Below, piece after piece: positions 3,971-58,136 of a stretch of DNA of 64,000 bases. The translations under genes and the position numbers were made by a program. The notes beneath the pieces are model-generated. The model was not told where the DNA came from and did not search any database. It saw only the letters and a list, made by a program, of their open reading frames with translations. Numbering within the stretch: the stretch's first letter is position 1; the number at the start of each line of letters is the position of its first letter. Source of the DNA: Nymphaea colorata (taxonomy: Eukaryota > Streptophyta > Magnoliopsida > Nymphaeales > Nymphaeaceae); assembly GCF_008831285.2 (NCBI RefSeq), contig NC_045141.1, forward strand, positions 25,905,315 to 25,969,314. The letters are read 5' to 3'.

Positions 3971-5991
3971 GCGATCAAATGAGAAAAACAAAGCAGGAAT
4001 GGAAAGCTCAACAGAGAAAGATTCCTCTTGTAAATTAGGAAGAAGAGGGAAGACAAGCGCTAAGCTATTTGCACTCAATGAAGAGCTCGTTTGATAACAG
4101 TTCTAGATATAGGAGGAATTAGGATGTCATGCCATGTTTTCCATACATATATTGTGCCTATAGATAGAACATTGATATGATGAAACCAGGAACAAATAAC
4201 GTGTCTGCTCTGTCGGGCGTTTGATAATGGTAAGATTAATGTGCCTTAAATCTCAGCTTTTCATTCAAGTTTTGAGCCTCAATCAAACTCACCTGTTAAT
4301 TAAAAGTTTGAATTTGATCAGTTACAGCTCTATTGAAATTTCTTCGACAACATGTAATTGACGTACAACTAAGTTGGAGAAAAGCATATGGTTAAATAAT
4401 TCGATCAGTTCATTTTTAAACGGCCTTATATATTATTTCATGCAAAGGGAAATAACTGGTGTGTATTAAATGCAACGCACTACGCACGACATTTTTCGAT
4501 CGAGAGAGACAGAGATGTTGCAATATAATCGCTGACCATGCGGACGGTGTGAGCAAAATGCAAGTTTCCCTCTTTCCTTCTCATGTCACGGCCGACAACG
4601 TGACGGTTGGACGTACGCCAGTGGACCTACCCCTCTGTGCATTGACACGTGAGGGGCGGGTTAATTTCTACTCCAGGAGAAGCACCCTATCGAAATCTCT
4701 CCATCGTCATCAATCTTAATCGGTTGGCGTCGTTCGTTCTTCTCTGCCGACTCCCTGCTCTGATTTTGCTTCACCTCATAGAATCAATGGCGTCTTCTTT
4801 GTTTCTCGTCTTCATGACGACATGAACTCCTTCATCAGCAGCCGTAGCATTCCACTGCCTCGTGAGTGCTAACTCCAACCCGACGCCATGGACAGATAAC
4901 AGATTTGAAAACTGTGAAATAAAAAGAAAGCCCGAAGAAGGTAGGAAATATGTCAGCACAGTTGACGGATCTGTTGCGGCCGGCTGGAGAGACTCATTCC
5001 CTTGTATCATCAATTGTCCTCTGTCCCTCCTTTTTCCCTTGCTGTTACACTCAGTCACATCTCCATTGCATCGTAGAGGGCCCCTCAGCTAGAATTTCAA
5101 CCGGAGGAGCCAGAGCCTCAGCTCCGTCCGGTGATATTCTTCTCTGAAAGGAAATGAATGATCGGTGTGATCATCAGAACCGACGGCGACGATGGCAGGC
5201 CGCCGTTTATCACCTGATCTCCTCTAGAATTGCAGAATCGGATTGTTAGAGAGTTTGCCTTGTGCGTCTTGTGAAAGCGATCATCCGGTTGCGTCTCTTC
5301 TTTCTAGTTAAGCCACGCTTTTTGTGTTTTGTATTAGACACATCCCAAGCGAAGTACATCTGTTTTGTATTAGACATCCTACGAAACCATTTCAAAAAAT
5401 TTTAACATAGAAAAAAATTGTACAGTTGATTGTTAAATGAGATCCGATTCAATTCTAAGAAATGGTGTTCGAATTCGCATAAATATGAATTTAATTTTAA
5501 ATGTATATCCAATGCTTTTACATTTTAAAAATCGGTTAGATTTGTAAGTGTAAGAATCAAATTCAGATCACGCCAAATTGTAAACTCGGATGAATTCTAT
5601 CTAAATATATAAATATCTATAAAGCAGATAATATCTCTAAATAAAATTTGATCGGTTGACATTCGTAAACAAAGAATTCCTTTCTGTGTTTGGGTGTAAC
5701 ACGCAAATCGGATCCAACCCGGATGACAACTGTACATTAATATTATATGAACTTAAAATATCTACATTTACTTTTAAAGCTTTTTCCAAAAGGGAGGCCG
5801 ACGTATTCGGTTACTACTTGCAGCCCGTGAGCGGGGCCCATGGCTCTCTCCCCTTTCGGTCGAAGGCGTGGGACCCACGTCCAACCTTTTGGCGCTTCGG
5901 GTTCCTCGACTCGGCGCCGGACAGCTCGGCTCAGCCACGGTTATTTGGAGAGTTCGTTTCTATCCCATTCTCTCTCTCTCTCTCTCTCTCT

Positions 5992-11869: not shown

Positions 11870-13780
11870 GAGAAAGTTCCCAGGCCCTGAAGCGCCGGAC
11901 CACACATAAAGGAATCTATTCCTTTATCTTTGGACAAAAAGTTTCTTGCAGCATCGACCACTTATCCCCAAAATAGTTAGTGATGGAAGGAGATAATATA
12001 ACAAAGACAGCTTCACCTTGGACTAAAATTCCCACCATCAGACATGTCAATTTCTTTTCCGAGCACCTTCTGACGGCTATTATCAACCGCGCGTGCCAAC
12101 CAGTTCCAGGTCCTGAAGACCAAAAGATTTGATCAGATATTTGATTCTCTTACAAGCTTTTTGACAACTGTTTTGGTTCTTTCACATGGGTTTAAGCACC
12201 AGAACTGGCTCGTGTGCTTTTCGAGAACCAGGAGTAGGCAGCCACGGCTAAATGATACCGACTCAGACATTAAAACTCTTAACCTTTTTTGGACTTGAAG
12301 GTACCAAATACACACCTGCCATATGAAGAAACAGTAAGGGATCTCCTCATTACAATTTTCAACCATACATGGGCCTGCAAAATATTTACCATGCTCTGTT
12401 TCAACTCAAACATGATCATAACTCATCAAGAAAGAATACACACTGAAATCTGCATATCAACAAATATAAAGATAATAAGAAACCATCAAGTCAAATCTGA
12501 CATATATATGTGCGTGTGTGTGTGAGTATGTCCGTATGTATGTCTACAGCACACACTCTTTGGAGGAATTGAAAATTTTGTTATGTTTGAGAGTAGAGAG
12601 GTAGTAGAGATACCAGAGAGGAATAAGAGAACGACCACCCATCAGAATCATCATTACGTGAAGAAAAGATAAAAAGAACCCGCTTTGGAACAGGCTTTGC
12701 TCGTATCCTAAAGCACATATAAAAGACGAAGAGACATTGTTTGTACTTGCGAGTATAATTGATGCAGAAATGTTGAGGGACTTCCTGTTCTCCTTCAGCA
12801 GAAAAAGGGAAAAGTTCCCTGGCTCTGGTTTATAGCACGAGGGACTTCCTGTTCTCCTTCAGCAGAAAAAGGGAAAAGTTCCCTGGCTCTGGTTTATAGC
12901 ACGAATTGGGTACCTATGAAAGGCGTTATGGGATCGCGAAGTGACCAATACTCATTTCTGGTACCATTCCTTCATAATAGCAATTTCCCAAATCCAGAAG
13001 TTAGCGAGTAGAAAGAAGGCTCTCATTTTGATTGTTCAACTCATGGTAGGGAGATCTGAAAAAAAGCTGGTTTTCAGTACCTTCATAGCTTAGACAGATC
13101 TTTTGATGGCAATTCACCAGACACCTCGGTCTTCGAAGACGGTGGTCTTAGGAAAAGACAACGGGAGGCGTAGCTTTGGAAATCATAGGGACTCCGCAAG
13201 AAGTGTTCTCATCTGCCGTAAGAAAACGCCATAAAGGAAAGAAGAAAGAAGGAAGTCCAATCCACAACTTCACTGAAATTAGTGAGTTATCAGTTACTTG
13301 AAGAATTGAAAGTCTTGAAGAACTGAAAGTTTTGAGGATCCTTGACTTGGATTAGACCTTTGCGTGTGTGTGTGGGGGGCCTAGTCATGGGATTAGAGCT
13401 GAACGTATCAAAAAGCCCAGATTTTTGGTGCTAAAACCACGTCAAAGTAACTGATTGCCTTTCTGAACTCCTGAAACAGGACTTGGTAAGCTTACTTAAC
13501 ACAGCTTCCTTGAATTTTTTGTCAGTTTAAGCAGATCGGTTCATGATAGCAAGAGACGATTTCTTTTAATGCATTGTTCACATGCACACTTTTCGTCAAG
13601 TCTAATGTAAGTGTGCCAGATTCCCCGAGTTCAAGTTTCTGGTTCCCATAACCTGAACAAGGTCCACGTTTGAACAGTAGTTCAGGAAAATACTGTCCAT
13701 AAGCTTAGCATGGTTTTAATCTAACAGTCTCAGCATGGGTCTTGTAAGGGAAGCAGAAAGTTAAAGGGAAGGCAAAACAA
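11870..13780. other. No recognisable gene; probably includes the 3' flank of the PPR gene
   Basis: No protein family is recognised on either strand. The part next to 13784 should contain the 3' untranslated region of the PPR gene. A perfect tandem duplication lies at 12775-12902. Confidence 0.5.
12775..12902. repeat. Perfect 64-bp tandem duplication
   Basis: The unit from 12775 to 12838 (starting gagggacttcctg, ending tatagcac) is repeated without a single difference at 12839-12902. Identity in non-coding DNA points to a recent event. Confidence 0.95.
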
Positions 13781-13783
13781 GAA

Positions 13784-15538
13784 TCAATGGGCAAACTCTT
13801 CTATCTTTACCATTCTATTCAAAAGATTTAACAGTAGATATATTTCGTTACATTGTGGATGAGTTCTTTCTCCAACTAAAAACTCATGAACAATTCCATC
13901 AACCTCGATTAAACTACAACCGGGATTCTTCTGCACTCCTCGGTCTATCATCAACCCCCTCAACCTCATCACATCATCCCACTGGTCAATTGATGCATAT
14001 AAATTCGACATAAGCACATAGGTACCGCTATCCTTATGTTTCAGCCTTGCCAATTCCTCTGCAACATTCTCATTCAACAAATGATGACTTCCATGAATCA
14101 TGAAACCGCTCACTAGAGATCCCCAGACAAAAGTATCAGGTGCCATTGGCATTGTCCTCACAAAGTTCAGAGCCTGCTCTAGATGGCCAGCACGACTCAG
14201 AAGATCAACCATACACGTATAGTGCTCTATAGAAGGCTCAATTTTATGAATCATACGCATGCCATGAAAAATTTCTTTTCCCTTGTTAACCATTCCTGCA
14301 TGAGCACATGCAGTCAAGATTGATACAAACGTAATACCGTTAGGCTTAATCCCTATGTTCTGCATTTGTTCGAAGAGCACAATTGCCTCCTCGCAGCATC
14401 CGTGCATGGAGAAGGCACATATCATAGCACTCCATGAGCATACATCCTTTTCTCTGTTCTTGAAGAAGATAAATTTGGCACCTTCAAGGAGACCACATTT
14501 AGAGTACATATCTATAAGAGCTGCACAAAGCATGTCATCCACATTAAACCTGCTCCTCTCAATGTATGCATTAATCCACATCCCCTGCTCAAGAGCTCCA
14601 AGATGCGCACAAGATGACAGTGCACCAACAAGTGTAGCTTGATTAGGCTTAACTTTCTCTATCATCATCTCATTGAAGACATCCAAGGCTTCTTCAAACC
14701 TACTGCTCTGCGCCAATCCAGTTATCATACCACTCCAGGATGACAGGTTCCTGCAGGGCATCTCACAAAACAACCTGTGAGCCTCATTGACAAATCCTGA
14801 TCTCGCATAACCGACAACCATGGTGTTCCAAGACACAACATCACGTTGAGGCATTTCATCAAACAACTTCCTAGCACTTCCAACGTCGCCCACCTTCACA
14901 TATCCAGCGATCACAGCATTGTAACTAGCAGAATTTCTCTCTGGCATCTCATCGAACAGTTTCCTCGCCATGCCCAAGACCCCAGATTTAGCATAACAAC
15001 CAAGAATTGAGTTCCATAGAATCACATCCCGTTCAGTAGTTTCAGCAAATACTTGGCTTCCACACTCGGTCAACCCACACTCAGCATAAAACCTTATAAG
15101 AGAACTCTGTGTGTGCATGTCAGAGTGATGCCCACTGCTGAAAAGCTTTCCATGAATGCACCTGCCGAATTCAAGAGCCAGGAGGAGAGAACAAACCTTG
15201 AGAATAAACGGATAGGTGTAGTTATCGGCATTTGTTCCCTCCCTCCTCATTTTTAGGTACAAGAGAAGAGCTCTTTCAGGGGAACGGGAGCCATCATTAG
15301 AGTATCCTCTGATCATTACGTTGTATGAGAATGTGCTCGGTTTTTGCATCTGGGCAAAGATCAGAGATGCCAATTCCAGGTCGCCCTCCTCAGAGGTAGC
15401 AGAGAATGACACGAGGTTCGCAAGAGAAGATGAGTGGTTCAAAACGCCTGTTTGGATGATTAAAGAAAGCGTCTGTTTAAGTTCCGCCATGGTTTTGCAG
15501 GCTTTGGATAGTTGGTAGATTATGGATATGCAAATCAT
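13784..15538 (-). CDS. Pentatricopeptide repeat protein, PLS class, E/E+ type
   Basis: One uninterrupted frame encodes 584 residues, as usual for this mostly intronless family. After a leader containing CKTMAELKQ (about residues 13-21) there are tandem PPR motifs of mixed P, L and S type; typical pieces are FSYNVMIRGYS, RDVVSWNTMVVGYARSG, MYSKCG and HYTCMVDLLSRAGHLEQA. The C-terminus has the E and E+ regions (GTYVLMSNLYASIDQWDDV, then NPGCSLIEVDGIVHEFLVG) and ends about 25 residues later with no DYW domain. Such proteins bind organellar RNA one base per repeat and usually act in C-to-U editing or processing, with any deaminase supplied in trans. The organelle and target cannot be read from the sequence. 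Met1 is the first in frame; Met17 (MAELKQ) is an alternative start. Confidence 0.92.
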   Translation of the reverse strand: MICISIIYQLSKACKTMAELKQTLSLIIQTGVLNHSSSLANLVSFSATSEEGDLELASLIFAQMQKPSTFSYNVMIRGYSNDGSRSPERALLLYLKMRREGTNADNYTYPFILKVCSLLLALEFGRCIHGKLFSSGHHSDMHTQSSLIRFYAECGLTECGSQVFAETTERDVILWNSILGCYAKSGVLGMARKLFDEMPERNSASYNAVIAGYVKVGDVGSARKLFDEMPQRDVVSWNTMVVGYARSGFVNEAHRLFCEMPCRNLSSWSGMITGLAQSSRFEEALDVFNEMMIEKVKPNQATLVGALSSCAHLGALEQGMWINAYIERSRFNVDDMLCAALIDMYSKCGLLEGAKFIFFKNREKDVCSWSAMICAFSMHGCCEEAIVLFEQMQNIGIKPNGITFVSILTACAHAGMVNKGKEIFHGMRMIHKIEPSIEHYTCMVDLLSRAGHLEQALNFVRTMPMAPDTFVWGSLVSGFMIHGSHHLLNENVAEELARLKHKDSGTYVLMSNLYASIDQWDDVMRLRGLMIDRGVQKNPGCSLIEVDGIVHEFLVGERTHPQCNEIYLLLNLLNRMVKIEEFAH

Positions 15539-15539
15539 G

Positions 15540-18500
15540 GTCTATAGCCAAGAAGAAATTCCAGAGAGAGAGACAGGGATTAGCGCGAGTTTGTGAAAAA
15601 TGGCTTATTCAATTACTGTCTGTTTGGACGAGGAGTAAAATCAATCACCGAAGGATTCATCGGCCACAAGAAATATTCAGGAAGCTAGACTAAATTTCGA
15701 ATTGATCTTACGTCAAAATAATTACAATTTTCCGAAAAGGATATCAAAATAAGAAGAATGGGAATACGGAAAACCAAATTAGCTTCCATGGGCGAATTCT
15801 CCATCTCCCTGATTTTAGAAGCAAGTTTAGTGACAGAGACTGAGGCGGCTCGTGTCGATCCCATCCAGTTGGTTCAAGGAAAACTGTTGCTCTTGCAACA
15901 TGTTTGTTGGATCATAGAAGAAAACCACATCTTCCAATCACGAAAAGAAGTGCTTCCAGAGCCATCTCTGACGTCGATAACAAGAGCAGCGACCTGACCG
16001 CTAAAATAAACGGATAACAATTCATAACGGAAGGATGTGATTTAGGAGAAAACCTGTATCCTAGTTAAAAATGTCATTTCATAGCCCAGACGATGATTTC
16101 AAACATGACCTTTTCTTAAGACATTTTTGTGGGTGCCGAAGAACACAAGAACAACATGCTGGTTCTCGTGGCAATCCATCAAGTCTAGCACAATATCCCT
16201 AGCAGATCATTTCTAGGTAGGTCTCTATGTTGTCATCTAATTGCAGAAGAGCAATAGTTCAATTACAGTAGTTCACTTCTTATCGTCGTATTTATCTGGC
16301 ACGTACAGGCATGCTAACTAAGCGGCAGCTTATTTGTGACAGAAAAGGAGAAATAAATGATCGAATAATGTTAATTTGTATTTGGGTGCCCTTGTTCAGT
16401 GCATAGGGATCGCTTAGAAGAAAACAAAGTTATAATTTGAAGATATTGCACCTCATCTCTTACATTGTCACACCAAGAATAGTTATTTTTTTTTTATTTT
16501 TACGATATTTTATTATTAATATTAATGCGTTTCCTTTGTAATTTCTTCTAAATGCTCCTCCCTTTGGATCGTGGTAACAAAAGAGTTGGAGAGGTTGCAT
16601 GGGTAGAGTAGTATTAAGTGGAAGACATCTATATTTGGTAAAGAAAAAAGGAATCAAACTTAAGCAGCATTTAAAGGAAATTCTCTTTTTTCAAATGCTA
16701 AACTTCTGACACATATATGATCTTGACGTCTAAAATCTATGGTACGTGGCCAGAAGGAGGATTTACTAATTAAAGAAAGGATGGATTTCGCTAAGGGTAG
16801 AGTTGGTTTCTCTGCAGACTAATATATTTTGCCAAAACCTATGAAATTTAAACACTTCAAATGTATTATCCAAATATTTGAAATTAAAGTATGATAAATG
16901 AAAAAATTATTTGTTTGCCCACACCAAAGCTGGGTTGGTGACTCTAATCCCCTCAGTGAAAAAATCATGGCTCTGTCATTGTGTTCATGTAATAATGTTA
17001 TGAGCTGCTTGTAAGACCCTCAGATGAACGAGCTCTTGCGAGCGAAACTGGTTATCTACACACCTTTGTGTGTACAAAATTGAATATGCAATGATCAAAA
17101 TACTTAAGTAAAAAAAAAAAAAAAAAAACTTTTTTATAAGAAGAAAATAGGATATACAAACAAAATAAAAGTCCAAAAAATACATTTATTTATAAAAATT
17201 TCTAAAACACCCCCACCACCCTCTTTTATTTTGTTCGGTGTATATTTGTCGAATCAAGTCTGCCGGTTGGTGGAGACAATAATACCCATAGGTTGGCTTG
17301 AATGAGCTGGTACCCAAACCAGGCAAGCTCACACGCACCAAGCTTCTCGAAGCTGCAACTCAACCTAACATGGCTTCTCCTCGTTGGCCGAATCATCGCC
17401 TTCATTAGCTTTCCACATGGAAGAAAAGAAGCCGTCCGTCGTGCATTGCACAATCATTTCAGGTAACGTGGTTCATTAAATGCAAAGATCTTCCTCTTCT
17501 TCATTCTCTGGCCACTATCCCTACGTGGCCCCGCCACCCGTGGCCTCCCTTGGCTGGAAAATGTAGATTTCGCCATTCGGATTTGACATTGGAGAAACCT
17601 TCTGCCTCTTGATGCATCGGGTGCTGCCTTTAGTTACTGTGATTCAGCTAGGTGATGCAACTCTCATTTTGCAAACTTAGGAATCAATAAATGAAAATTT
17701 ATCAGAGTATGAGATCAAGAAACCTTCTTCCTCTTCTTACCTCAGTCACTTAAAAGTGTCATAAAAAAATAGTACATCGGTGCTGCCCACGGAAACAACA
17801 AAAACAGTATGGTAGGCAACATGCTTCATAAATAGCACTACCGATGGCGATCGCATATTCCATAAATGCGGCCTACCAATTCTCCGCACTTCCGACGCTT
17901 CCAGAAAACGAGCATAAAATTTTACAACCACTTCACCAGATCTACCGAGTAAAGTAAATGATTCGGAAAGCCTCTCAGGCAAGTTTCCTAAATCTGTCCA
18001 TCGTAGATCCAAACAGAAATTTTAAATGAGAAACATGAAAGTCATAACTTTTTCTATTCTATCCTGTTGGATGAAAGCTTTCAGCCATTGAGAAATTTTA
18101 AAATCTTTTCCTCCAACAACAAACTCTAGCTTGAGATGAAAAGGGCGCAGAAGAGTAGGCTTTTCGATTTTTATTTTTCTTCTCAGAAAACTTATCCAAC
18201 TTAGTGATCAGTCCATTAATGAAGATTAACCTGGAAGACCTCCCCGAAAGAGTAAACAGGAAGAAAATGACCACAACTCTCTCTCCCCTTCTGTCGGTGT
18301 GTGTGTGTGTGTATGAGAGAGAACAACTCATCTGTATCATGGCTACGCATGACATTGGATTTTAGAGCTCAAAAGGTTCGAAGGGAGCAAACTGAAGTTC
18401 ATTGGTACACGGAAGTGTCCGCTAGGCCACTGTTTACATTGAAGAAGACCTCCACCACTCACCTGCCACACTTACAACTACGGGAATCGTTTTAAAAAGG

Positions 18501-18704: not shown

Positions 18705-18778
18705 GGAGTTAGATTAGATCATCCGAAGGCAGCACAACTCGGCGTAGCTACTACTGAGAGAGAGAGAGAGAGAGCAAC

Positions 18779-20248
18779 ATGGCTCGAGGGGTGGGTATGG
18801 CGAGCAGAGTGGGCCTGTCATGGCTGGTTTTGAGTCTTTTCCTTGGCTGTGCTTTCTGCAGAGTGATGAGGAAGGATAAGCAGTACAATGGTGAGGAGCT
18901 CTTTGCCTTCGGCAAAGGAGCAGGTTTTGGAGGTGGTTTCGGTAGCGGTTTTGGAGGTGGGAAAGGATTTGGTTTTGGCAAGGGTGGAGGACTGGGAGGA
19001 GGGGTCGTTGGGGGTTTTGGTGGTGGCGGTGGCGGTGGTGGTGGTGGTTTTGGTAGTGGTGGTGGATTTGGTGGCGGCTTTGGTGGTGGTCATGGAGGTG
19101 GTTTCGGTGGTGGATTTGGTGGAGGTCATGGTGGTGGTCTTGGAGGTGGTGCAGGTGGTGGAGTAGGGGGTGGCATTGGCGGTGGCCATGGAGGTGGTCT
19201 GGGTGGCGGCATTGGTGGAGGACACGGTGGTGGAGCTGGAGGAGGTGGAGGTCATGGTGGTGGTCTTGGAGGTGGTGCAGGTGGTGGAGTAGGGGGTGGC
19301 ATTGGCGGTGGCCATGGAGGTGGTCTAGGTGGCGGCATTGGCGGAGGTGGAGGTCACGGTGGTGGCATTGGTGGTGGAGCTGGAGGTGGTGTAGGTGGGG
19401 GTCATGGAGGTGGAATAGGTGGTGGTGCTGGTGGAGGAGTTGGCGGAGGTCATGGCGGTGGAGTTGGTGGTGGACATGGGGGTGGTGTAGGTGGAGGTAT
19501 TGGTGGTGGGCACGGTGGTGGTGGTGGTCATGGTGGAGGTCATGTAGGTGGCCGGCATGGTGGTGGTGTGGGTGGCGGTGCTGGTGGCGGTCATGGCGGT
19601 GGTATAGGTGGAGGGGCTGGTGGAGGTGGTGGTGGTGGTGTAGGTGGCGGTGTTGGTGGTGGTGTAGGAGGAGGTGTTGGTGGTGGCCATGGAGGTGGAG
19701 TAGGTGGTGGAATAGGGGGAGGCCATGGAGGAGGTGTAGGAGGTGGTGCTGGTGGAGGAGCTGGCGGAGGTATTGGTGGTGGTCATGGAGGTGGTATAGG
19801 TGGTGGAATCGGTGGCGGTGCTGGTGGAGGAGCTGGCGGTGGTATTGGTGGTGGTCATGGAGGAGGTGTAGGAGGTGGTGCTGGTGGAGGAGCTGGCGGA
19901 GGTATTGGTGGTGGCCATGGCGGTGGTATAGGTGGTGGAATCGGTGGCGGTGCTGGTGGAGGAGCTGGCGGTGGTATTGGTGGTGGCCATGGAGGTGGTA
20001 TAGGTGGTGGAATTGGTGGGGGTGCAGGTGGAGGAGCTGGTGGTGGTATTGGTGGTGGCCATGGAGGTGGTATAGGTGGCGGTGCAGGTGGTGGAGCTGG
20101 CGGTGGCCATGGAGGTGGAATTGGTGGTGGTAGTGGTGGAGGGTTCGGTGGAGGTGCTGGTGGTGGTGGAGGGTTCGGTGGAGGTGGTGCAGGATTCGGC
20201 GGAGGTGCTGGTGGTGGCCATCGCATCTTTTCTGGAGGCTTCAACTAA
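18779..20248 (+). CDS. Secreted glycine-rich protein, probable cell-wall structural protein
   Basis: A single-exon frame encodes 489 residues. The N-terminus is a signal peptide (hydrophobic core WLVLSLFLGCAFC, about residues 15-27). A short charged stretch follows (RVMRKDKQYNGEELFAFGKG), and then about 430 residues made almost wholly of GGX triplets, mostly GGGHGGG, GGGIGGG, GGGAGGG and GGGVGGG with some F early on and at the end; it closes with HRIFSGGFN. Such proteins are exported to the plant cell wall, and the many His residues are a distinctive feature here. DNA-level copies are clear: a block of about 95 bp at 19121 recurs at 19247 (126-bp shift, in frame), and longer units repeat between 19730 and 20110. 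The long open frames on the other strand are by-products of the GGN codons. Confidence 0.88.
   Translation: MARGVGMASRVGLSWLVLSLFLGCAFCRVMRKDKQYNGEELFAFGKGAGFGGGFGSGFGGGKGFGFGKGGGLGGGVVGGFGGGGGGGGGGFGSGGGFGGGFGGGHGGGFGGGFGGGHGGGLGGGAGGGVGGGIGGGHGGGLGGGIGGGHGGGAGGGGGHGGGLGGGAGGGVGGGIGGGHGGGLGGGIGGGGGHGGGIGGGAGGGVGGGHGGGIGGGAGGGVGGGHGGGVGGGHGGGVGGGIGGGHGGGGGHGGGHVGGRHGGGVGGGAGGGHGGGIGGGAGGGGGGGVGGGVGGGVGGGVGGGHGGGVGGGIGGGHGGGVGGGAGGGAGGGIGGGHGGGIGGGIGGGAGGGAGGGIGGGHGGGVGGGAGGGAGGGIGGGHGGGIGGGIGGGAGGGAGGGIGGGHGGGIGGGIGGGAGGGAGGGIGGGHGGGIGGGAGGGAGGGHGGGIGGGSGGGFGGGAGGGGGFGGGGAGFGGGAGGGHRIFSGGFN
19121..20110 (+). repeat. In-frame higher-order repeats inside the glycine-rich gene
   Basis: A block of about 95 bp starting ggaggtcatggtggtggtct at 19121 recurs at 19247, differing by one base at its end. 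Between about 19730 and 20110 a unit coding the order HGGG-I-I-A-A-I (each followed by GGG) recurs about four times with silent changes. All shifts are multiples of three. Confidence 0.75.
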
Positions 20249-31975: not shown

Positions 31976-32310
31976 AAAGTAGCCTGATCCTTTAAAAAGG
32001 AAAATAATGGATGAAGAGATTATTATCAAGAGCTCGAGGAATTACAACAAAACCGCAAAGGGTTTGACCAGAAGAGAAAACAAAGATGTGAAAAACTGAA
32101 CCGCAACACTCACAGGAACAATTTTCAATTCAAGTGTATTTAAAAAAAAAAAAACTTCAAGCGCGCTTTAATCATTTGTATTGGTCAGTGCTAAAATGTT
32201 AATTCAGTTCATCTTTGTGGCCGCTGCCCAAAGATAAAATGCATGCCTTACCTAATGCTTGAAATGCAACTTCAACGCCTTGCGCGTCCCCATTAAGCCG
32301 CGGACACACG

Positions 32311-35896
<3,586 letters not shown>

Positions 35897-35915
35897 TGAT
35901 AACCAGTGAGTACTT

Positions 35916-36171
35916 TGTTGAGGCGACGGCTAGTCTGCAGCAAGAGTAACTTTCCTCTTGTGCAGAAGTTTTTTCCCTTTGGTTGTTTTATTTCCTTTGT
36001 TGTTCCCATCGGTTCTCCTCAATATATGTCTGTAAGGGTGAACCACCAAAAAAACAAGAAAGAATGAAAAGAAAAAGTCTGGTTTTGTTCGTTCGTGGAT
36101 GTAGGCAACAATAGCCGAACCACGTTAACTCTTGTTTATGTGTGATTGCCATCTTTCTTCAACATTTGACA
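35916..36171 (+). mobile_element. Solo copia LTR behind DBR gene C, looks whole
   Basis: The 256-bp sequence starts TGTTGAGG and ends CATTTGACA, has the gtggatgtagg...ccgaaccacg signature of the other copia LTRs here, and is flanked by a 5-bp target duplication, tactt (35911-35915 and 36172-36176). The matching place behind DBR copy D (40790-40794) has a single tactt and no insert. It is therefore a solo LTR that arrived after the C/D duplication, and young relative to the other copia debris here. Confidence 0.85.
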
Positions 36172-36176
36172 TACTT

Positions 36177-37854
36177 TATCAGGCAAAACTGTCTGCAACT
36201 GTTTTTAGATGTGTTACAGTGGGATTAAATCATATAATTATGGACCAGCTGCATCGTCTGACTTAGTTTGGCAGCTACAAATGTTGAAACTGAGCCTTAA
36301 TATTGCACACGATTGTGGTTCTTCAATCAAGTCTCCGTAGTTGTTATTTGAGCGACAGAAAGTGTTATGTTTCATTTCTTTTGAGCAATTATTTTTTCCC
36401 TTCGAAAGAAGATGAGATTCTCCCTTGTCACTGGAATCGTCCAAGCCGCTTGTACCAATTGGCCATGATATCCAGGAGGAAGAATTGAGATCAGTTCCCC
36501 CATCTATTGAGTCACTCAACACCTTTGATGGGAATCGTCTCATACAATGGGCTCTCCTGTTAAGATGAAACCGGATGGCATCTTAGAGATCATCAATCCG
36601 AATCTGTTTAAATTCATATATGAATTCAAATCACCTTTTAAATATGTTACTAAATTTGAGTCGCATTACGAAATGTTAAGAACCAACTTTGAATATGTAT
36701 GGATTGGAAACTGGATCTTATTGGATATTTATTTCAAACAGAAGCCATATCTGATGAGATGACATTTTTTATATTTGAATATAATCTTATTTATTAATTA
36801 AATATTTTTTTTCCATATCTGATTTTGTGGGGACAAAATCTGATCTATTGACATCCATAGTTAAACTCCTTTCTTAATCTAGAAAGAAAAAGCTTCTATG
36901 GACCGATTTTTCTTACAAATGCATTTATAGTCAACCTGAATTTGTATACCAGCTGCTTTTTCTTATCCAATAAAAAAGGTCCTATCGAATTTGCTGCCAA
37001 GCGATAACTACCATTTCACCATCGAGCACAAAAGGGAGAACAATCGCTTCATTAAGGGGGATAAAGAATCAGATATTTTCCTTTCCCATTAGACGAAAAT
37101 TCAACAAACAAAGAACTAGTGAATTACTAACAACTGCAAAAATCGAGGAAATAATTAAAAGGAAAGCAAAAGCTTATCGAGACCCAGTAGCAGCTGCAAA
37201 GGAAAAAACTTAGGTCGCTCATTTCGTTTGTTTAAAGTTTCAAATAAGGGCCAAAATGTGTTTACAATTAATCAAGCAAGTTCTTAAAAGGCTTGATATA
37301 GCTGCTGGAGCTGTGGGGCGTCAACTTGTTCTTATCTCTCGACTGTCAATATTGGACAAAAAATCATTCCTAATCAGTGTAGCAACTTCTAATTTGTCTT
37401 CTCGATAGCCAATATACCGACAAAATGAAAATTCACTAACAAAATTGAATGATGTCACAAGAAACACAAAAAGTCAGCAACATACAAAGAAAACAAAGTA
37501 TCCAAAGAAGCCAACAAACAAAGGAGAGAGAAGTAGAAAGAAAAATGTCATTCATAATCATTCTAGCACCATCTCATTTCTCTATTGAGGGGAACACCAG
37601 AATATCACAAACGGGTGCAACCTTGAGGAAGCACCTGTTTGATCAATCCTATTGGCAGAGTCCCCAGATGTTGCACATGAAAGGCGTCTCAAGCTTGTTC
37701 ACATGCATGTGGTGGCAGAGCATACGACACGTTGAGGCTTATAACAGTTTTACCTATTTATGAGAGAGAGGGAGACAGAGATACTTCAGCACACAGAGAG
37801 AGAGAGAGGGAGAGAGAGAGAGAGAGAGAGCGAGACCGGCAGAGAACGGGAGAG
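36177..37854. other. Spacer between DBR C and D, part of the duplicated unit
   Basis: This spacer is matched, with modest divergence, by 40795-42574 behind copy D. A conserved segment near 36414-36545 (matching 41034-41203) contains a short open frame in the second copy, but I recognise no family. No gene is annotated. Confidence 0.65.
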
Positions 37855-40775
<2,921 letters not shown>

Positions 40776-40794
40776 TCATGACCAGTGAGTACTT

Positions 40795-42478
40795 TATCAT
40801 GCAAAACTGTCTACAACTGCTATAGGATGTGCTACAGTGGGATTAAATCATATAGTTATGGACCAGCTGCATAGTCTAACTTAGTTTGGCAGTTAAAATA
40901 TTGAAACTGAGCCTTAATATTGCACACCATTGTGGTTCTCCAATCAAGTCTTCGTGGTTGTTATCTTGAGCGATATTAAGTGCTATGTTTCATTTATTTT
41001 CTCTCAGCAATTTTTTTTTTTCCCTTGGAAAGAAGATGAGATTCTCCCTTGTTACTGGAATCGGCAAGGCGCTTGTACCATTCCGCCATGATATCCATGA
41101 GGAAGGATTGAGATCAGTTCCCCCATCCATTGAGTCACTCAACACCATCGGCTACTTGTCTCCTTTGATGGGAATCGGCTTATACGGAGGGCTCTCCTGC
41201 TAAGATGAAACCGGATGGCATCTTAGATATCATCAGTCCGAATCTGTTTAAATCCATATATGAATTCAAATAACCTTTTGAATATAATATTTTTTATTAA
41301 TTAAATATATTTTTTTCATATCTGATTTTGTTGGGACAAAATATGATCTATTGACATCCATAACTAAACTCCTTTCTTAGGTGCGATCTCGAAAGAAAAA
41401 ACTTCTATGGACCAATTTTTCTTAACAAATTCATTTATAGTCAATCTGAAATTGTCTACCAGAAGTGGGGCCATAATAATTGTTGAGATGCAGCTGCTTT
41501 TCTTATCCAATAGAAAGGTCCTATCTAATTTGCTGCCAAGCGATAACTACCATGTCACCCATCGAGCACAAAAAGGAAGAACAATCGTTTCATTAAAAGG
41601 GGATAAAGAATCAGATCTTTTCCTTTCCCTTTAGACGAAAATTCGACAAACAAAGAAGCAGTGAATTACTAACCACTGCAAAAATCGGGGAAATAATTGA
41701 AAGGAAAGCAAAAGCTTACGGAGACTCAGTAGCAGCTGCAAAGGAAAAAAACTTAGGTCGCTCATTTCGTTTGTTTAAAGTTTCAAATAAGGGCCAAAAT
41801 GTGTTTACGATTAATCAAGCAAGTTCTTAAAAGTCTTGATATAGCTGCTGGAGATGTGGGGCGTCAACTTGTTCTTATCTCTCGACTGTCAATATTGGAA
41901 AAAAAATCGTTCCTAATTAACTTCTAATTTGTCTTCTCGATACTCAATACCTTAACAAAATTGAGTGATGAGAAGTCACAAGAAACACAAAAAGTCGGTA
42001 AAATACAAAGAAAACAAAGTATACAAAGAAGCCAACAAACAAAGGAGAAAAAACGGAGAGAAGAAGAAAGAATATTGTCATTTCTAATCAATCCAGCACG
42101 AAAAATATCATTTCTAATCAACCTTGCACCTTCTCATTTCAACACCAGAATATCACAAACGGTCCAATAAAAAAAATGACATTAAAAAAAATAAATTTTT
42201 TTAATTGCATCATGTATTTTAATTCAATTTTACTTTACCTGAATCGAGAAGTTGCAGTCGATCCCACCCTCAAAAAAATCTTGCTCCCCCGATCAATCCT
42301 ATTAGCGGAGTCCCCAAATGTTGCACATGAAAGCCGTCCCAAGCTTGTTCACATGCATGTGGTGGCAGAGCATACGACACGTTGAGGCTTATAACAATTT
42401 TACCTATTTATGAGAGAGAGAGGGAGACAGAGATCCTTTATCAGAGAGAGAGAGAGAGAGAGGGAGACAGAGATCCTT

Positions 42479-42525
<47 letters not shown>

Positions 42526-42574
42526 GGGAGACAGAGATCCTTCATCAGAGAGAGACCGGCAGAGAACGGGAGAG
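40795..42574. other. Spacer between DBR D and E, part of the duplicated unit
   Basis: This matches 36177-37854 in order and orientation. It includes the leader of gene E with its expanded GA minisatellite (42413-42560). The frame at 40985-41203 is open for 72 codons but unrecognised, and its counterpart behind C is not open in the same way. Confidence 0.65.
42413..42560 (+). repeat. GA-rich minisatellite in the leader of DBR gene E
   Basis: Three units share the core gggagacagagatcctt followed by atcagagagag and are separated by (GA)n runs of different length; the third has ttcatc for ttatc. Copy D has a single related unit (gggagacagagatactt at about 37769). Confidence 0.85.
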
Positions 42575-45447
<2,873 letters not shown>

Positions 45448-46340: not shown

Positions 46341-46796
46341 TTTAGGCCACGTTTGATGGCACCGATTTTTTAGAGGGGAACTTTTTCTAGGGGAAAATCT
46401 CCATGGAAAAATGTCAGAAGGGTAAAATTCCCTTCTTCTTGTTTCAGACCATGTTTGATGGTCTGGAACTTTTTTGAAGGGGAAAAAATGCCTAGTTTGA
46501 TAGGCAGGGAAATTTTTTCAAGAAAAAATTTTTTGACCGTCATGGTAAAAAACTGCAACTGACCATGCACCACCTACACACATCATGCAATTCAGCCTGG
46601 AAAAAAATATTTAAAGCCATTCAATAAAACCCTGTGTAATGTACAACATAAACGCTACATCGTTCAAAGCCACTGGAATCATCTACAAGTTACTTGGTAC
46701 GTTACCTCCAGCCCCAATGAGTGCCAAGAAGACATTCTCTCTATCTGTCAGTCCCATTTTTCCTACCAGAACTTGCTGTGGGCCTATTTGGCAAGT

Positions 46797-47175
46797 CTAG
46801 TGCCTCGTAATGTATCTCAAACAACCACATTTGCATTATTGGGGCTACATCCTGCTGCAACAAGAATTGATCCACTTGAACTACAAGGAAAATGAAACTG
46901 AAACTATAAAAGGATGACAAACTTGTCACATTTATAACCCATTCTGTACAACAAACATAGGATGCATAGCTTTGAAAGCAGACAGTTGATTCTGTGGGCT
47001 GGACATTGTTCGTGCTTCCAACCTCAAGTAACCAGGTGCATACAGTTCCATCTGATGAAGAAGTAGCCAAACGATGTCCACAATGATCAAATCTTAAAGC
47101 TGATATTGATGCTAAAGCATAAGGGGCAGGAACATTTGCAGCAGGAAGAATGCCATAAGTGCAGAAGGCCAAAAA
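46797..47175 (-). pseudogene. Captured exons of a DmX/Rabconnectin-3-like WD40 gene
   Basis: On the minus strand the first piece codes GILPAANVPAPYA, then ALRFDHCGHRLATSSSDGTV and CTWLLEVGS, and continues to QPTESTVCF (about 47155-46960). The second piece, after an intron with a plausible acceptor at 46881, codes SGSILVAAGCSPNNANVVV, then TGA where a WD40 Trp is expected, then DTL. Both fit the C-terminal WD40 part of the large plant DmX-like proteins (RAVE-type V-ATPase assembly factors) as I remember them. Retention of an intron shows that genomic DNA was captured rather than a spliced message. It is a fragment with at least one nonsense codon. Confidence 0.65.
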
Positions 47176-47179
47176 ACAT

Positions 47180-47263
47180 TTCATAAAAAAGAAGCTGGAC
47201 TAAGTAGTCCATTTGTGCATCAGTCCATGTAAGATTCTCCCTTGATGTACCATTATCCTCCAT
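47180..47263 (-). pseudogene. N-terminus of a MYB/SANT-like (Myb_DNA-bind_3 type) protein
   Basis: From an ATG at 47263 the minus strand codes MEDNGTSRENLTWTDAQMDY, then LVQLLFYEMF. The WTDAQM...V-QL---E pattern is the start of the plant MYB/SANT-like domain found in Harbinger accessory proteins and in domesticated L10-interacting MYB proteins. After about 28 residues the similarity stops and sequence of the WD40 fragment begins, so the domain is incomplete. The stretch is short and the call rests on pattern memory. Confidence 0.5.
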
Positions 47264-48956
47264 GTTAATGATTTGCACAAGCGGATTAATAAAGCAATCT
47301 TGTACCTGAAACAGTAAAATTTTGAATTAAACAAAAGAACAGAAACAAATCTCAAGAGGCCAACATGAATAACAAAACTGTACCAACTTTCCCTTCCCAA
47401 ATGGTCAGAACAAATATGATGCATACTTCAACACTTGAGTTGAATCAATTTGTTCAGTAGCAGATGGACTTAGGCTCAGTTCATGGATTGCCTTTGACTG
47501 TGTGATCTTAATAAGGTTTCAGAAAGAGAGAGAGAGAGAGAGAGAACGAGAAAGATGGATAAAAAGCTCACAATGTTGAACAACAAAAAGGAGAGGCCAA
47601 TGGCAAACTGCAACCCACAGAAATCCTTGAATAATTGAGCCCATAACTTTGTAGAATTAGCAGTATCGAAAATGTAAACTAGATTCAAAACCTTATTAAG
47701 ATGACGCAGTCAAAGGCAACCCTAAACAGAGGCAGATATGCTCTCTTTTGCCTTTCTTAGTTTCTAAGGCAGCAAGATAATAAAATGCAAGTCTTATCTG
47801 CTAATTAACAATTTTAGGAATTCAAGCACATGACAATTCACCTCAGAGTTTCATTCATACCCACAGATACAAATTGACACCTACTGACCTAGTTGCATAT
47901 ACTCACATATACACAAAGGTGCATGCTTGCTACATTTGCCTAAGCGTGATTGAATTAACACATGAACAAGAAAATAAACATAACTGAATGAGCTATAGAG
48001 GCACATACAATCACAATCAGTATCAAAATGATGAACACTTCCAATTGGGGCAAAAACAATGTTCCTTGTTTTACAATGCCAAGTACAAAGAACTCACAAA
48101 GGAAATAGCTTGAAGCAAGCTATTTACATAACAAACTCTTTTACAGTTTTACTTTGATTGGTTCAAAACAGTAGATGTTCCCCAATTAGCACCAATCCCT
48201 CTCACAAAAACCAATAGCATGGAACCAAAGACTAAGCCCAGAATCAGGTAAGGCAATCCCATTTTAGTCCAAAGCCTGATCTTCAAACAACAAGCTCTGA
48301 AATAAAATGTAAGTAAAATCAAGATTTTGGAAAGGACAGAAAACTCCAGGAATACATAAACGGGATTAAGAACCAGGATGTTGCAGAAGACAGAAACTTT
48401 CAAGAAAACAGAAAATGATTTGGGTATAATAAGATACCCAAAAATACTAAACTTCAACGAAGTTCTTCTAAAGTTCTTCCACCAAGATCCAGAACGTGTT
48501 TCAATCATGCCAAAGAAAAAGGATCTAGCAAATACTAGCTTTGGAAGAAAATGCCACTAAAATGGAGATCTTGGAGAAGCATGAAAACTTCAGACGGACG
48601 TCCAGTAAAGAGGAAGCAGACGAACATGGTAGCTGTCAAAACTGAAGACATGTATACCTTGCATTTTTGAGCTGGGAAAAAAAAAGAACACTTACAGCAA
48701 TATCCACTATGTTGTAAAGGACTAAAACAAGATTGGCAGGCGCTGATAAAAGAATATGCATAAGATAGCTTTAATAGCACATAGTAACCAAAAAGATAAA
48801 AAGAAACGGTTGTTCAGGCCATTGAGATTGAGGACGTAAGAAGGGAAGGATCACCCATGAAGCAGCGGAAGGAAAAAAACATATGGCGATGAATAGAAAA
48901 AAAGACAGAATGCAGGGATGGCGTACCTCAACTTCTTCGAAATACCACGACGGCTG

Positions 48957-49070
48957 GAGGCAGAGCAGCGGCGGTGGTGGAGAGCACGGCGAGCGGACGA
49001 CGACTAGAGGCAGAGCAGCGGCGGTGGTGGAGAGCACGGCGAGCGGACGATGGCTGGAGGCAGGAACGAG
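48957..49070. repeat. 50-bp GC-rich tandem repeat inside Harbinger-like element 1
   Basis: The unit cagagcagcggcggtggtgg with the following agagcacggcgagcggacga recurs at 48961 and 49011, with a partial third copy at 49061. The complete copies differ only near their ends. Confidence 0.85.
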
Positions 49071-49123
49071 AGCGAAGAAACGAGTGATGAGACGCCCTAA
49101 CGGGCAAAAAATTTGTCTCTGCC

Positions 49124-49177
49124 AAAAAGTCGGACCCTCCAGGGTCCGACTTTTTTCCAGGGGAAAATTCCCCTGGA
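49124..49177. repeat. Two adjacent near-perfect palindromes at the right end of element 1
   Basis: The first has 15-bp perfect arms (49124-49138 and 49141-49155, AAAAAGTCGGACCCT) around two bases. The second has 10-bp perfect arms (49156-49165 and 49168-49177, TCCAGGGGAA) around AA. They lie back to back about 115 bp inside the right terminus. Confidence 0.9.
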
Positions 49178-49294
49178 TCCAACCCTTTACCCGGGGAAAA
49201 AAACCTGCGTTTGATTGCATCAGGAAAAGCCGTACAGATTTGGAAAATTTACCCTGATGCACAGTGAAATCCCTGTGCATCAAACGTGGCCTTA

Positions 49295-50627
49295 GGGCCC
49301 GTTTGATGGGCGGGTGAAATTTAACGCGGTAAATTTACCATGGTAAATTTTTCTGGAAAAATTTACAGGATGAAATTTCTCCCTCTTCCAATTTGAGGCC
49401 TTGTTTGATGGGCGAGAAGAATTTACCGTGGTAAATTTAATCCTGTTTGATGCACATGAAGAATTTAACATGGTAAATTTAACCATGTTTGATGCACATG
49501 AAGAATTTAACATGATAAATGTTGTTTTTGTTGTGTCTTCTCCTCTCCAAATCTGACTTGGGAGATCACAAAGGAAGGCATCAAAAGGTTGTTCTTTGTT
49601 GTCTGGCATTCAAGACCAATACATCAAGGTTCCTCAGAAAGCCCCTCTTCCAACTCATCGATCACACCATTAATTTAGTTAAACATATCCAGAACGAACG
49701 CATAATCAACAAAAACCTTAATTTGAATATAGAGCGATTCAGAACTTGATGCATTCATAAAACCCAAGGTTCAATAAGATACGACCAACATATGTTTACC
49801 AATAAATTATCACTTCATTTCATTGTGTACAATACTACCAAATAACAGCATATGGTCGGCCATGAAACCAGAACAGAACGCATATACACTGCAGACTCTG
49901 TATTAACGAGTACCAACTCCCCCAAACCCTAAAAATTCAACAACCAAACTCTACATCTTAGCCATAAAGTGCACTCCCTTGCTGTGAAACCTCTTCATGA
50001 TCCTCCCCACCTCTCCACGGTCTCCATCGAAGCACGCCAAATCTTAATTCTTATCAAACCAATCTCTCTATTCCGGCAACAGAGAGGTCAGGATTAACTG
50101 ATCAGCTTGTTTCTCAAGGTTGAATTAATGAAAGAGAAAACCCTGCAAATGAATCAACTTGGCATCTTCAAGCCTGCGCTTTTTTGTCCTAACAGCTGCC
50201 TTAATATTCTTTTTATTTGCCCTGACTTCACTTTGTTTGCTGCTTTCAAGGCTTGCGCCTTCGCATCAGGTTTCTAAGCAGGAGCTGTACGCAGAAATTT
50301 CAAATAAGGTGACTTCTGTCAAGATTGCCACATGCACTGCAAGATCCTAAGAATTTAATAAGGAGCCGAACATAGACAAGTGCCTCGCATGGTACTGGAT
50401 CATAATCATAATCATAAAGGTTATCCCAAAAAGAAGTTGGAAGGAAAAGAATTTTAGGGAAAACAGCTGAAAAATGTCCCTTTTCAAGAAGCAAGGTGCC
50501 GGTGGAGATGATGAACTCCACAAGGGAAGCAGACCTAAACAAATTGTTGATGATATAAGACAGTTATCATGCCACCAAATACTGCACACACACATATACA
50601 CAGATAGCGAGAGAGAAAGGAGCGACC

Positions 50628-50672
<45 letters not shown>

Positions 50673-51246
50673 GTAGGCGACTTAGCGACATTTGCTCACT
50701 GAAGCATAGCGATGGCTCTCTGAAAGGCCTGGTTTCCATTGTTGGTCCTCCTCGATCACGAAGGATAGAGAGGAACCATCTGGAACCGATTGCAAGAGAG
50801 AGACAGAGAAAAACAAATTGGGCGTTTTTGAAAAAGGGACACATCGAGAGCAAGAGAAACCCTTACATGAGAGGCGACTGTGGCGTTGGCGAATCGGCAG
50901 AGGAGCGGAGCAGAAATGGCGGAGCAGCGACGTTGAGAAAGGCCTTTGGTGCGACGGTGAGAAGACGGTGAGAAGTTTCTTTGTCAGGGAGGAGCAGCTG
51001 CAGAGAAGGAAAAGGGTGAAATACGACGGGAGGAGAGGGTGTCGAGCGGGTGAAATTCCACCCGCTCGAAAGTCCGAGGTGCGAGCTCGGACTTTCGAGC
51101 GGGTGGAATTTCACCCGCTCTCTTTTGCATTAAACGGGGTGAAATTCACCCCGTTTGATGCGTTTTTGGTGGGGCGGGTGAAATTTCACCCGCCCGTACC
51201 GTTTTTTCTCTCTTCTCTCATTTTTCCCCGCCTATCAAACCGGGCC
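49295..51246. mobile_element. PIF/Harbinger-like DNA element 2, adjacent to element 1
   Basis: The left end is GGGCCCGTTTGATGGGCGGG and the right end read inward is GGCCCGGTTTGATAGGCGGG, with TTA on both sides (49292-49294 and 51247-51249). The left TTA is also the right target site of element 1. The 1,952-bp interior has no recognisable transposase. A frame at 50159-50350 (plus) would code a hydrophobic stretch after a non-ATG codon, and I do not support it as a gene. The left end has a subterminal 42-bp repeat (49444 and 49486, core tgtttgatgcacatgaagaa). The right end has four stacked palindromes at 51044-51195. There is a (GA)n run at about 50631-50670. Confidence 0.68.
51044..51195. repeat. 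Stack of palindromes at the right end of element 2
   Basis: There is a perfect inverted repeat with 35-bp arms (51044-51078 and 51086-51120) around a 7-base loop; each arm is itself nearly self-complementary (GAGCGGGTG...CACCCGCTC). Next comes a 35-base palindrome with 17-bp arms and one mismatch (51127-51161, containing ACGGGGTGAA). Last is a perfect 24-base palindrome (51172-51195, GGGCGGGTGAAA and its complement). Confidence 0.95.
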
Positions 51247-51249
51247 TTA

Positions 51250-56852: not shown

Positions 56853-58124
56853 TCAACGACCGTGATCACCTCCTTTTCCAGGGCCACCGCCACCGCCACC
56901 GCCACCACCAATGCCAACTCCAATGCCCTCGCCAACACCACCGTTTCCATACCCCATCCCGACTCCATATCCTCCATTTCCGCCGTATCCGTATCCCATC
57001 CCATATCCTCCGCCGCTGCCGCTGCCGTAGCCGTAACCATAACCGACTCCTCTCCCACCATTTCCACCACCGCCGCCGCTGTCGCCCCCTCTGGGCGTTT
57101 CACTTCCTCCGGATCCACCACCTCTCCCAATTTCTCCACAATTTCCATCATCGTCTCCATTGCCATCTCCAGAACCACAGTCACCGCCGCCATTTCCCCC
57201 TCTTCCACGGCGTTGGCTGCCTCCACTAGGATTTTCTCCTCCACAATCTCCACCATCATTTCTACTACCTCCTCCAGAACCACCACTTCCTCCTCCTTCT
57301 CCTCTTACAGGGCGTCCGCCACCTTCACCAGGATTTCCTCCACCTCTTCCATTAACGTCACAATCACCCCGTCCCGAGCCACAGTCACCACCACTTTCTC
57401 CTCCTTTTATAGGGCGGTTACGGCCAGATACTCCACCACCTTTTCCATTGCTACAGTCACCTCCTCCAGAGCCACAATCACGACCTCCTTCTCCTCCACC
57501 ACCTCTTCCATTGTTACAATCATCACCTTTTCCGGAGCCACAGCTACCATCACCTTCTCCTCCTCTTACAGGAGGTTGTGAACCTTGACCAGGAAAGCCG
57601 CCAGCTCTTCCATTGCCACAGACTTCCCCTCTAGAACCACAGTCACCACCATCATTACCTCCTCCTCCCTCTCCTCTTCCAGAGTGTTGGGCACCTTGAC
57701 CAGGGTTTCCCCCGGCTCTTCCTTCATTACAATCTCCTCCTCTGGTCCCACAATCGCCATAGCCAGAGCCATGGCCTCCTCCTCTACCACCGGCACCACC
57801 TCCCACAGGAGAGCGGCCTCCCTGACCAGGGTTCCCACTGCCTCCTCCACGGGGAGCTTGGCCACCAACACCAACACCAACACCAATTCCAACCCCTCCT
57901 CCTCCGCCACCGCCATCACACGGAACGGCCGCGCCACCAATCTCTCCTGAAATGTTGCACCTGATCTTTTCATCTACCAGTGGATGCGGAGGCACATTCC
58001 TAGCGCCATCAATGTGAGAAACATGGAAAGCTGAAGAAAGAAGAAGAAGAAGGAGAAGCATGATAATCTTGATCGTGCTTGCCTTCTCGTAAAGATGCAG
58101 AGATGGGGATGAGAGGATGGCCAT
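56853..58124 (-). CDS. Secreted glycine-rich protein with repeated Cys pairs
   Basis: The open frame encodes up to 423 residues. The Met at 58124 lies only 13 bases from a TATA-like box (58137-58143), so translation more likely starts at Met22 (58061), which gives a standard signal peptide (MLLLLLLLSSAFHVSHIDGA) and about 402 residues. After a short polar region (RNVPPHPLVDEKIRC...VPCD) the mature protein is Gly-rich with many repeats of the form DCGSxGGDCxNGxxGG, each bringing a pair of Cys about six residues apart, separated by GGNPGQG and Arg-containing linkers such as RPVRGEGGG. The last 90 residues change to a Tyr-rich form (GYGYGYGSGSGGGYGMGYGY). The Cys pairs could cross-link the protein and the Tyr residues could be oxidatively coupled in the wall. 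I know no exact family match. Confidence 0.8.
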   Translation of the reverse strand: MAILSSPSLHLYEKASTIKIIMLLLLLLLSSAFHVSHIDGARNVPPHPLVDEKIRCNISGEIGGAAVPCDGGGGGGGVGIGVGVGVGGQAPRGGGSGNPGQGGRSPVGGGAGGRGGGHGSGYGDCGTRGGDCNEGRAGGNPGQGAQHSGRGEGGGGNDGGDCGSRGEVCGNGRAGGFPGQGSQPPVRGGEGDGSCGSGKGDDCNNGRGGGGEGGRDCGSGGGDCSNGKGGGVSGRNRPIKGGESGGDCGSGRGDCDVNGRGGGNPGEGGGRPVRGEGGGSGGSGGGSRNDGGDCGGENPSGGSQRRGRGGNGGGDCGSGDGNGDDDGNCGEIGRGGGSGGSETPRGGDSGGGGGNGGRGVGYGYGYGSGSGGGYGMGYGYGGNGGYGVGMGYGNGGVGEGIGVGIGGGGGGGGGPGKGGDHGR

Positions 58125-58136
58125 GCACGTAGAAGG

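Follow-up and report, generated by a model that had tools for sequence, protein, structure and literature searches.

How do two transposable elements come to stand back to back with a single target triplet between them? The question is raised by a 64,000-nucleotide stretch of contig NC_045141.1 of the water lily Nymphaea colorata (hereafter the window), where an initial annotation had placed two Harbinger-like elements bounded by TTA at exactly 46342, 49292 and 51247. Our reading of the sequence and a scan of the whole window reproduced this geometry to the base. Element 1 (E1; 46345–49291, plus strand, 2947 bp) follows a left target-site duplication, TTA, at 46342–46344; Element 2 (E2; 49295–51246, plus strand, 1952 bp) precedes a right one, also TTA, at 51247–51249; and the TTA at 49292–49294 is common to both. 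We concluded that E1 and E2 are very probably two non-autonomous members of one PIF/Harbinger group, one of which was inserted in the TTA flanking the other.

Two elements and one shared TTA

The terminal inverted repeats (TIRs) of E1, GGCCACGTTTGATG on the left (46345–46358, plus strand) and its partner on the right (49278–49291, minus strand), are identical at 14/14 bases. E2 carries GGGCCCGTTTGATG on the left (49295–49308, plus strand), with an identical start in the four full-length sisters described below, and GGCCCGGTTTGATA on the right (51233–51246, minus strand), which was located by the scan and in fetched E2-type loci. The scan required TTA/TAA with G(N)5GTT, an inverted partner with at most 4 mismatches in 14, equal duplications and a length of 200–5000 bp; the motif and mismatch rule were taken from passages of PMC2213677. 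Three pairs only were returned, namely E1, E2 and the outer pair of both, while over 60 dinucleotide shuffles the mean was 0.017 pairs and the maximum 1.

We searched the 407,766,735-base assembly (783 contigs) for further copies. Using the initial 301 bases of E1 as the query, we scored the best 40 of 108 candidates and fetched 30, E1 itself included. The E1-type left end was intact at the predicted start in 27/30 of these loci (counting the window's own, and one, L027, that was one G short), and three were truncated. The triplet before the 27 intact ends was TTA in 13, TAA in 11, TGA in 2 and CTA in 1. With the last 247 bases of E2, the best 40 of 327 candidates were scored (E2 included) and 20 became loci; among those best 40, four other right ends were 99–100% identical over the query. 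The 20 right ends were followed by TAA (9), TTA (4), CTA (2), TCA (1), TGA (1), TTG (1), CGC (1) and CTT (1), the CGC and CTT coming from one truncated and one shifted end.

By joining contiguous fetched stretches, we read a full-length E1 sister (2981 bp, TAA duplication, 99.4% identity over aligned bases) and four full-length E2 sisters of 2270 bp (TAA), 2261 bp (TAA), 2247 bp (TTA) and 2319 bp (TAA), relative to which E2 has an internal deletion. Equal duplications flanked 15/16 bounded elements outside the window (13 TTA/TAA, 1 TCA, 1 TTG), the remaining one (L048) being without its last base; L047 had been dropped from this set for its truncated right tip. Because L015, L024 and L025 had been selected by a scan requiring equal duplications, the unselected count is 12/14, L047 included. 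The boundaries of the initial annotation were borne out: the search could have returned no other copies, or copies ending elsewhere, and it returned further copies with the same ends and with TTA/TAA duplications of their own.

An autonomous-type partner with a DDE transposase, which the annotation had proposed seeking, was found. This element, AUT1, is 6291 bp long (C2:28057029–28063319, joined from loci L009 and L051), has an E1-type left end and TTA duplications, and shares the TIR of E1 exactly over 14 bases. Its open reading frames (ORFs) matched DDE_Tnp_4 (2.4e-14), Plant_tran (1.8e-8) and Myb_DNA-bind_3 (2e-15) in Pfam. A second coding relative, L078, combines an E2-type left end (GTTTGAT at 1074, 1178, 1220 and 1263) with an E2-type palindrome region, and the DNA between these ends is 78–83% identical to the transposase and Myb region of AUT1; its Myb-type ORF was assigned by visual inspection and from the resemblance of its DNA to AUT1. 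One AUT1 transposase exon gave at least 150 scored matches of 280 candidates genome-wide, many with internal stops (often a single TAG), suggesting a large family with many broken copies. A PDB search with a transposase exon gave nothing relevant, and no transposase was detected in E1 or E2 among the 20 of 51 listed ORFs scanned with Pfam.

All of the superfamily features that we tested were present: a 3-bp TTA/TAA duplication, TIRs of ~14–25 bp with G(N)5GTT (3/14 positions differing between the E2 ends), a partner with the same ends and DDE_Tnp_4/Plant_tran matches, and a Myb/SANT-type ORF1 as the second gene of that partner. We therefore filed E1 and E2 under PIF/Harbinger. The Harbinger identity first suggested for them held up on TIRs, duplications, further copies and AUT1 proteins, and because copies have TTA/TAA duplications of their own and AUT1 shares the TIR of E1, we regard the two as non-autonomous members.

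Coding relatives such as AUT1 would supply a transposase and a Myb-type ORF1 protein that recognize the ends, cut the element out and reinsert it at TTA/TAA, with 3 bp duplicated. A second insertion that hit the TTA beside the first would then give E1-TTA-E2 with a shared middle triplet. We infer that AUT1-type proteins, supplied by coding relatives, moved both E1 and E2. Elements of the PIF type prefer the target CWCTTAGWG. At the right end of E1 a C precedes the TTA, as it does in 10/16 bounded relatives, and this base hints weakly that E2 may have landed second.

Layout of the ends

The initial annotation had described strong palindromes in both right ends, and the ranking of 250-bp bins and DNA folding confirmed them. 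The two palindrome-richest bins in the window were those at 51000, the E2 right end, and at 49250, which holds the E2 left end together with the last palindrome of E1. Folded as single-stranded DNA, the last 217 bases of E2 gave z = −16.0 and the last 202 of E1 z = −5.8; the left ends, rich in smaller palindromes, gave z = −4.9 (E2) and −4.1 (E1).

By palindrome scan and folding, the right end of E1 (49124–49282) contains palindromes at 49124–49155, which is also present in AUT1 and the E1 sister, at 49156–49177, which recurs in the sister and in variant form in AUT1, and at 49255–49282. Its left end has plus-strand GTTTGAT repeats starting at 46351, 46453 and 46495 (46351–46501), spaced by 102 and 42 bp. 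The left end of E2 has four such repeats on the plus strand, at 49301, 49403, 49445 and 49487 (49301–49493; spacings 102, 42 and 42), a 42-bp unit in 2.8 copies, and palindromes at 49317–49336, 49343–49366, 49420–49437 and 49467–49489 (together 49317–49489). At the right end of E2 a long palindrome (51044–51120), with 35-bp perfect arms and 7 bp between them, is retained across the family. A second palindrome (51127–51161) includes a GTTTGAT opposed to the direction of the right TIR, and a third, GGGCGGGTGAAATTTCACCCGCCC, lies at 51172–51195 (palindrome scan and family alignment).

We compared 18 elements: E1, E2, AUT1, the E1 sister, the four E2 sisters and ten relatives. GTTTGAT was found at +7, +109 and +151 of the left end, within 2 bp, in 17/18, the second and third copies being missing from L048; E2 and its sisters have an additional one at 193. 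On the right, GTTTGAT stood at 7 in 18/18, and an oppositely oriented copy was present at 77, 87 or 88 in all except L015 (17/18). Dyads, defined as GGKRAA(W)1-2TTYMCC with at most one mismatch, numbered 0 in all 18 interiors, 0–2 in the left 250 bases (none in L023 and L028) and 1–7 in the right 250 bases of every element, against a background in the window of 0.008 per 250 bases. In 16/18 elements the palindromes of the right end surpassed every one of 30 Markov controls; L025 and L015 fell short. Across the 18 elements, palindromes and GTTTGAT copies are arranged consistently, as a trait of the family. Because the dyad motif was defined after the ends had been viewed and the elements had been identified by their ends, the shared layout is a description rather than an independent test.

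GTTTGAT repeats and GGKRAAATTYMCC-type dyads may be docking sites, probably for the Myb-type ORF1 protein, and docking there would help to assemble the transposition complex. We infer this role from the arrangement of the motifs, and binding by ORF1 is putative.

Competing explanations

Could 46345–51246 instead be a single composite that transposed as a whole, its internal ends being relics? The outermost pair of ends passes the TIR and TTA criteria too, at 3 mismatches, and passages of PMC8903248 describe how Pack-type elements can form when neighbouring insertions fuse. Against this, the E1-TTA-E2 junction pattern had a single match in the assembly at 0 mismatches, so there was no sign of an E1–E2 unit with an intact junction having spread; that search was for exact matches, some head-to-head or tail-to-tail forms fell outside its pattern, and decayed junctions could escape it. 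The E1 sister and the four E2 sisters, moreover, sit separately, each with its own duplication. With the junction found once and the sisters apart, we hold a single composite element to be very unlikely. An assembly mis-join of two copies would also set the elements back to back, and both families are repetitive and the junction was seen once. A mis-join would, however, be unlikely to fall exactly on a single TTA between two complete ends, and within the window neither outer flank matched anything but itself; we consider this explanation extremely improbable. When a paralogous empty site was sought in the window's tandem gene copies, none was found, the joined flanks, like the single ones, matching only themselves.

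We retained the reading in which one element landed at the target duplication of the other, as the annotation had proposed: the middle TTA serves both elements, and their junction occurs once in the assembly. Several observations weigh against the account as a whole, in which coding relatives moved two non-autonomous PIF/Harbinger elements. The two ends of E2 match at only 11/14 positions, and 2/15 equal duplications fall outside TTA/TAA (TCA/TCA in L041, 16–1706, and TTG/TTG in L046, 33–1705), suggesting that target choice is slightly looser than TTA/TAA. The final 38 bp of the E2 right end have no match in L078, and the AUT1 proteins were read as separate ORFs, so that neither relative is a proven intact source. 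Since the elements were chosen by similarity to E1 and E2 ends and the dyad motif was post hoc, neither layout nor enrichment counts as independent.

The palindromes invite a different explanation, in which they were left behind by error-prone repair of ends that had been excised or nicked, or else act as hairpins in RNA that supply small-RNA silencing. Palindromes can arise by template switching, a general route that would suit a repair by-product, and the extreme single-strand folding of the E2 right end would suit a hairpin. So would one palindrome pair that is T-G in 17/17 copies, a mismatch in DNA and a wobble pair in RNA. These copies are 17/20 of the fetched E2-type right ends, L033, L034 and L047 having been excluded before the count. 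In their alignment, 95.0% of cells in the three palindromes were paired, which argues against both versions as pairing kept through divergence, although kinship among copies inflates the pairing and covariation counts; when the alignment was slid by 1–3 columns, pairing fell to 30–53%. Changes on both sides were seen in 7/64 pairs, giving 11 such cells versus 5.0 (standard deviation 1.9) in shuffles, and the number of pairs changed on both sides was reached by 10/500 shuffles. A measure of 'further pair types' was no better than the shuffles, 387/500 being at least as high. The confinement of one dyad type to the ends, with 0 in the 18 interiors, also speaks against by-products or hairpins. 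On balance we regard this explanation as possible, with a chance somewhat short of even.

A stronger version of the docking reading is that these elements form a Harbinger lineage with two multi-site end arrays, read cooperatively by the Myb-type protein, in which the short TIRs would serve mainly as cutting sites. The left array would consist of direct GTTTGAT copies 102 and 42 bp apart, near whole helical turns, and the right array of stacked dyads. We offer this version tentatively and consider it rather unlikely as it stands. If true, such a lineage could mobilize varied cargo, including gene fragments, and accept a TTA adjoining its own ends.

Gene-like cargo and relation to known families

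DNA resembling the two coding elements makes up 44% of E1 and 26% of E2. Its share in 15 other elements is 18–47% for 14 of them and 100% for L015, a plain deletion derivative. Within E1, a stretch at 46629–47186 (minus strand) is unmatched by either coding relative and contains a WD40-like fragment at ~46933–47112; its Pfam matches (WD40, E=0.002; WDHD1 WD40, E=0.0014) are both under the curated cut-offs, and a PDB search matched a WD-repeat chain at E=0.00048. Next to it lies a 94-bp remnant of a Myb-type ORF1 exon (47187–47280, minus strand), which is 97.9% identical to AUT1 5412–5505, a segment inside the Myb_DNA-bind_3 ORF of AUT1; alone, the remnant has no Pfam match. Two more transposon-derived blocks (E1 1065–1334 and 1441–1671, within 47409–48015, plus strand) are 95% and 99% identical to AUT1, and the order of these AUT1-derived pieces is changed relative to AUT1.

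Comparison with its four sisters placed the internal deletion scar of E2 at 50090–50093, where there is a 4-bp AGGA microhomology. The sisters have ~359 bases more at this point, including an ACBP-like exon that, computed from coordinates, falls almost wholly within the segment missing from E2 in the window. The ACBP match in the long sister tested (L033) had E=8.1e-4, under the curated cut-off.

Pfam matches above cut-off inside bounded relatives were PPR_2 (L039, L044) and NAD_binding_10 (L024). A long NAD(P)-binding reductase fragment was observed in L024, L025 and L029 (by NAD_binding_10 in L024 and L029, by eye in L025), and we take it to resemble divinyl chlorophyllide reductase; L029 was not counted because its left end is truncated. 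Matches to FKS1 (L020), GH81 (L042) and WRKY (L043) pass the cut-off near these ends, with one element boundary unseen in each. We did not treat GH81 and WRKY as captured, the left element boundary being unseen, nor FKS1 in L020 and L018, where the right boundary was unseen and L018 was also under the cut-off; KIP1 in L049 was likewise under the cut-off and was not counted. Host-like coding fragments of the kind that define Pack-TYPE elements (Pack-PIF) are thus present in the interiors of bounded relatives, those of E1 and the long E2 sisters being under the cut-off. These matches make capture of host-gene fragments likely in this family, which would agree with the Pack-PIF elements described in passages of PMC8903248.

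Elsewhere in the window, 32263–45444 is a tandem array of similar genes, with exons such as 35486–35893, 40365–40772 and 45049–45444, which are presumably 2-alkenal/NADP-dependent reductases; E1 starts ~900 bp downstream of the last gene copy. Long glycine-rich reading frames at 18758–20245 and 56856–58136 lie in the two bins of strongest GC skew, and a long reading frame of 585 amino acids at 13787–15541 is PPR-like by eye. Two-copy tandem duplications were found at 39885–40250 (180 bp, 96% matches) and 12775–12904 (64 bp, 100%).

The initial annotation had contrasted the palindromes with known PIF/Harbinger elements, said to have simple inverted ends. That contrast was wrong: passages of PMC2213677 describe MtPH-A6-4 of Medicago truncatula as carrying tandem repeats of 60 bp in the subterminal region at one end or at both, so that complex subterminal repeats exist elsewhere in the superfamily. 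According to the same passages, MtPH elements have TIRs with G(N)5GTT (e.g. GGGTCCGTTTGGTTC) and TTA/TAA duplications, several encode a DDE transposase and orf1, and many members are non-coding. The E1/E2 family resembles them in its G(N)5GTT TIRs, TTA/TAA duplications, coding and non-coding members and subterminal repeats. It differs from the direct 60-bp tandem units of MtPH-A6-4, which E1 and E2 do not have, in its spaced GTTTGAT on the left and palindromes on the right, and 'palindrom' has 0 occurrences in the text of PMC2213677.

Other systems offer partial likenesses. From passages of PMC2836001 and PMC9921582, PIF/Harbinger transposition requires a DDE transposase and a Myb-type ORF1, and ORF1 of the zebrafish element binds TIRs and is required for nuclear localization of the transposase. 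As in mPing/Ping/Pong, E1 and E2 are non-autonomous elements whose coding partner has both a DDE transposase and a Myb-type ORF1; in passages on that system (PMC2836001, PMC9921582) the TIRs are 15 bases long, internal regions can promote or impede movement, and TIR, sub-TIR and internal sequence govern activity, and 'hairpin' has 0 occurrences in PMC9921582. Pack-PIF elements of maize and rice, in passages of PMC8903248, carry PIF ends around host-gene pieces, and 12/13 maize PIF local pairs have the same orientation, as do E1 and E2; they are a different family in a different host. 'Harbinger' is absent from the main text of the Nymphaea colorata genome paper (PMC7015852), and our searches of open-licence papers found no instance of the palindrome/GTTTGAT layout. 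Because this layout is consistent in 18 elements and those searches did not find it, there is a fair case that these elements represent an undescribed family within a known superfamily, its end design being unusual and of putative function.

The locus therefore presents, in an early-branching flowering plant, a Harbinger family with gene-like cargo that looks recently active, since E2 and its four sisters are 99.4–99.6% identical over aligned bases. Coding relatives accompany the family, and its end layout is defined sharply enough to be tested in binding and excision assays. Should the arrays indeed dock the ORF1 protein, they would shed light on end selection in two-protein Harbinger systems. 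The junction with its shared TTA, in turn, cleanly exemplifies the neighbouring insertions that are thought, in passages of PMC8903248, to give rise to Pack-type elements.

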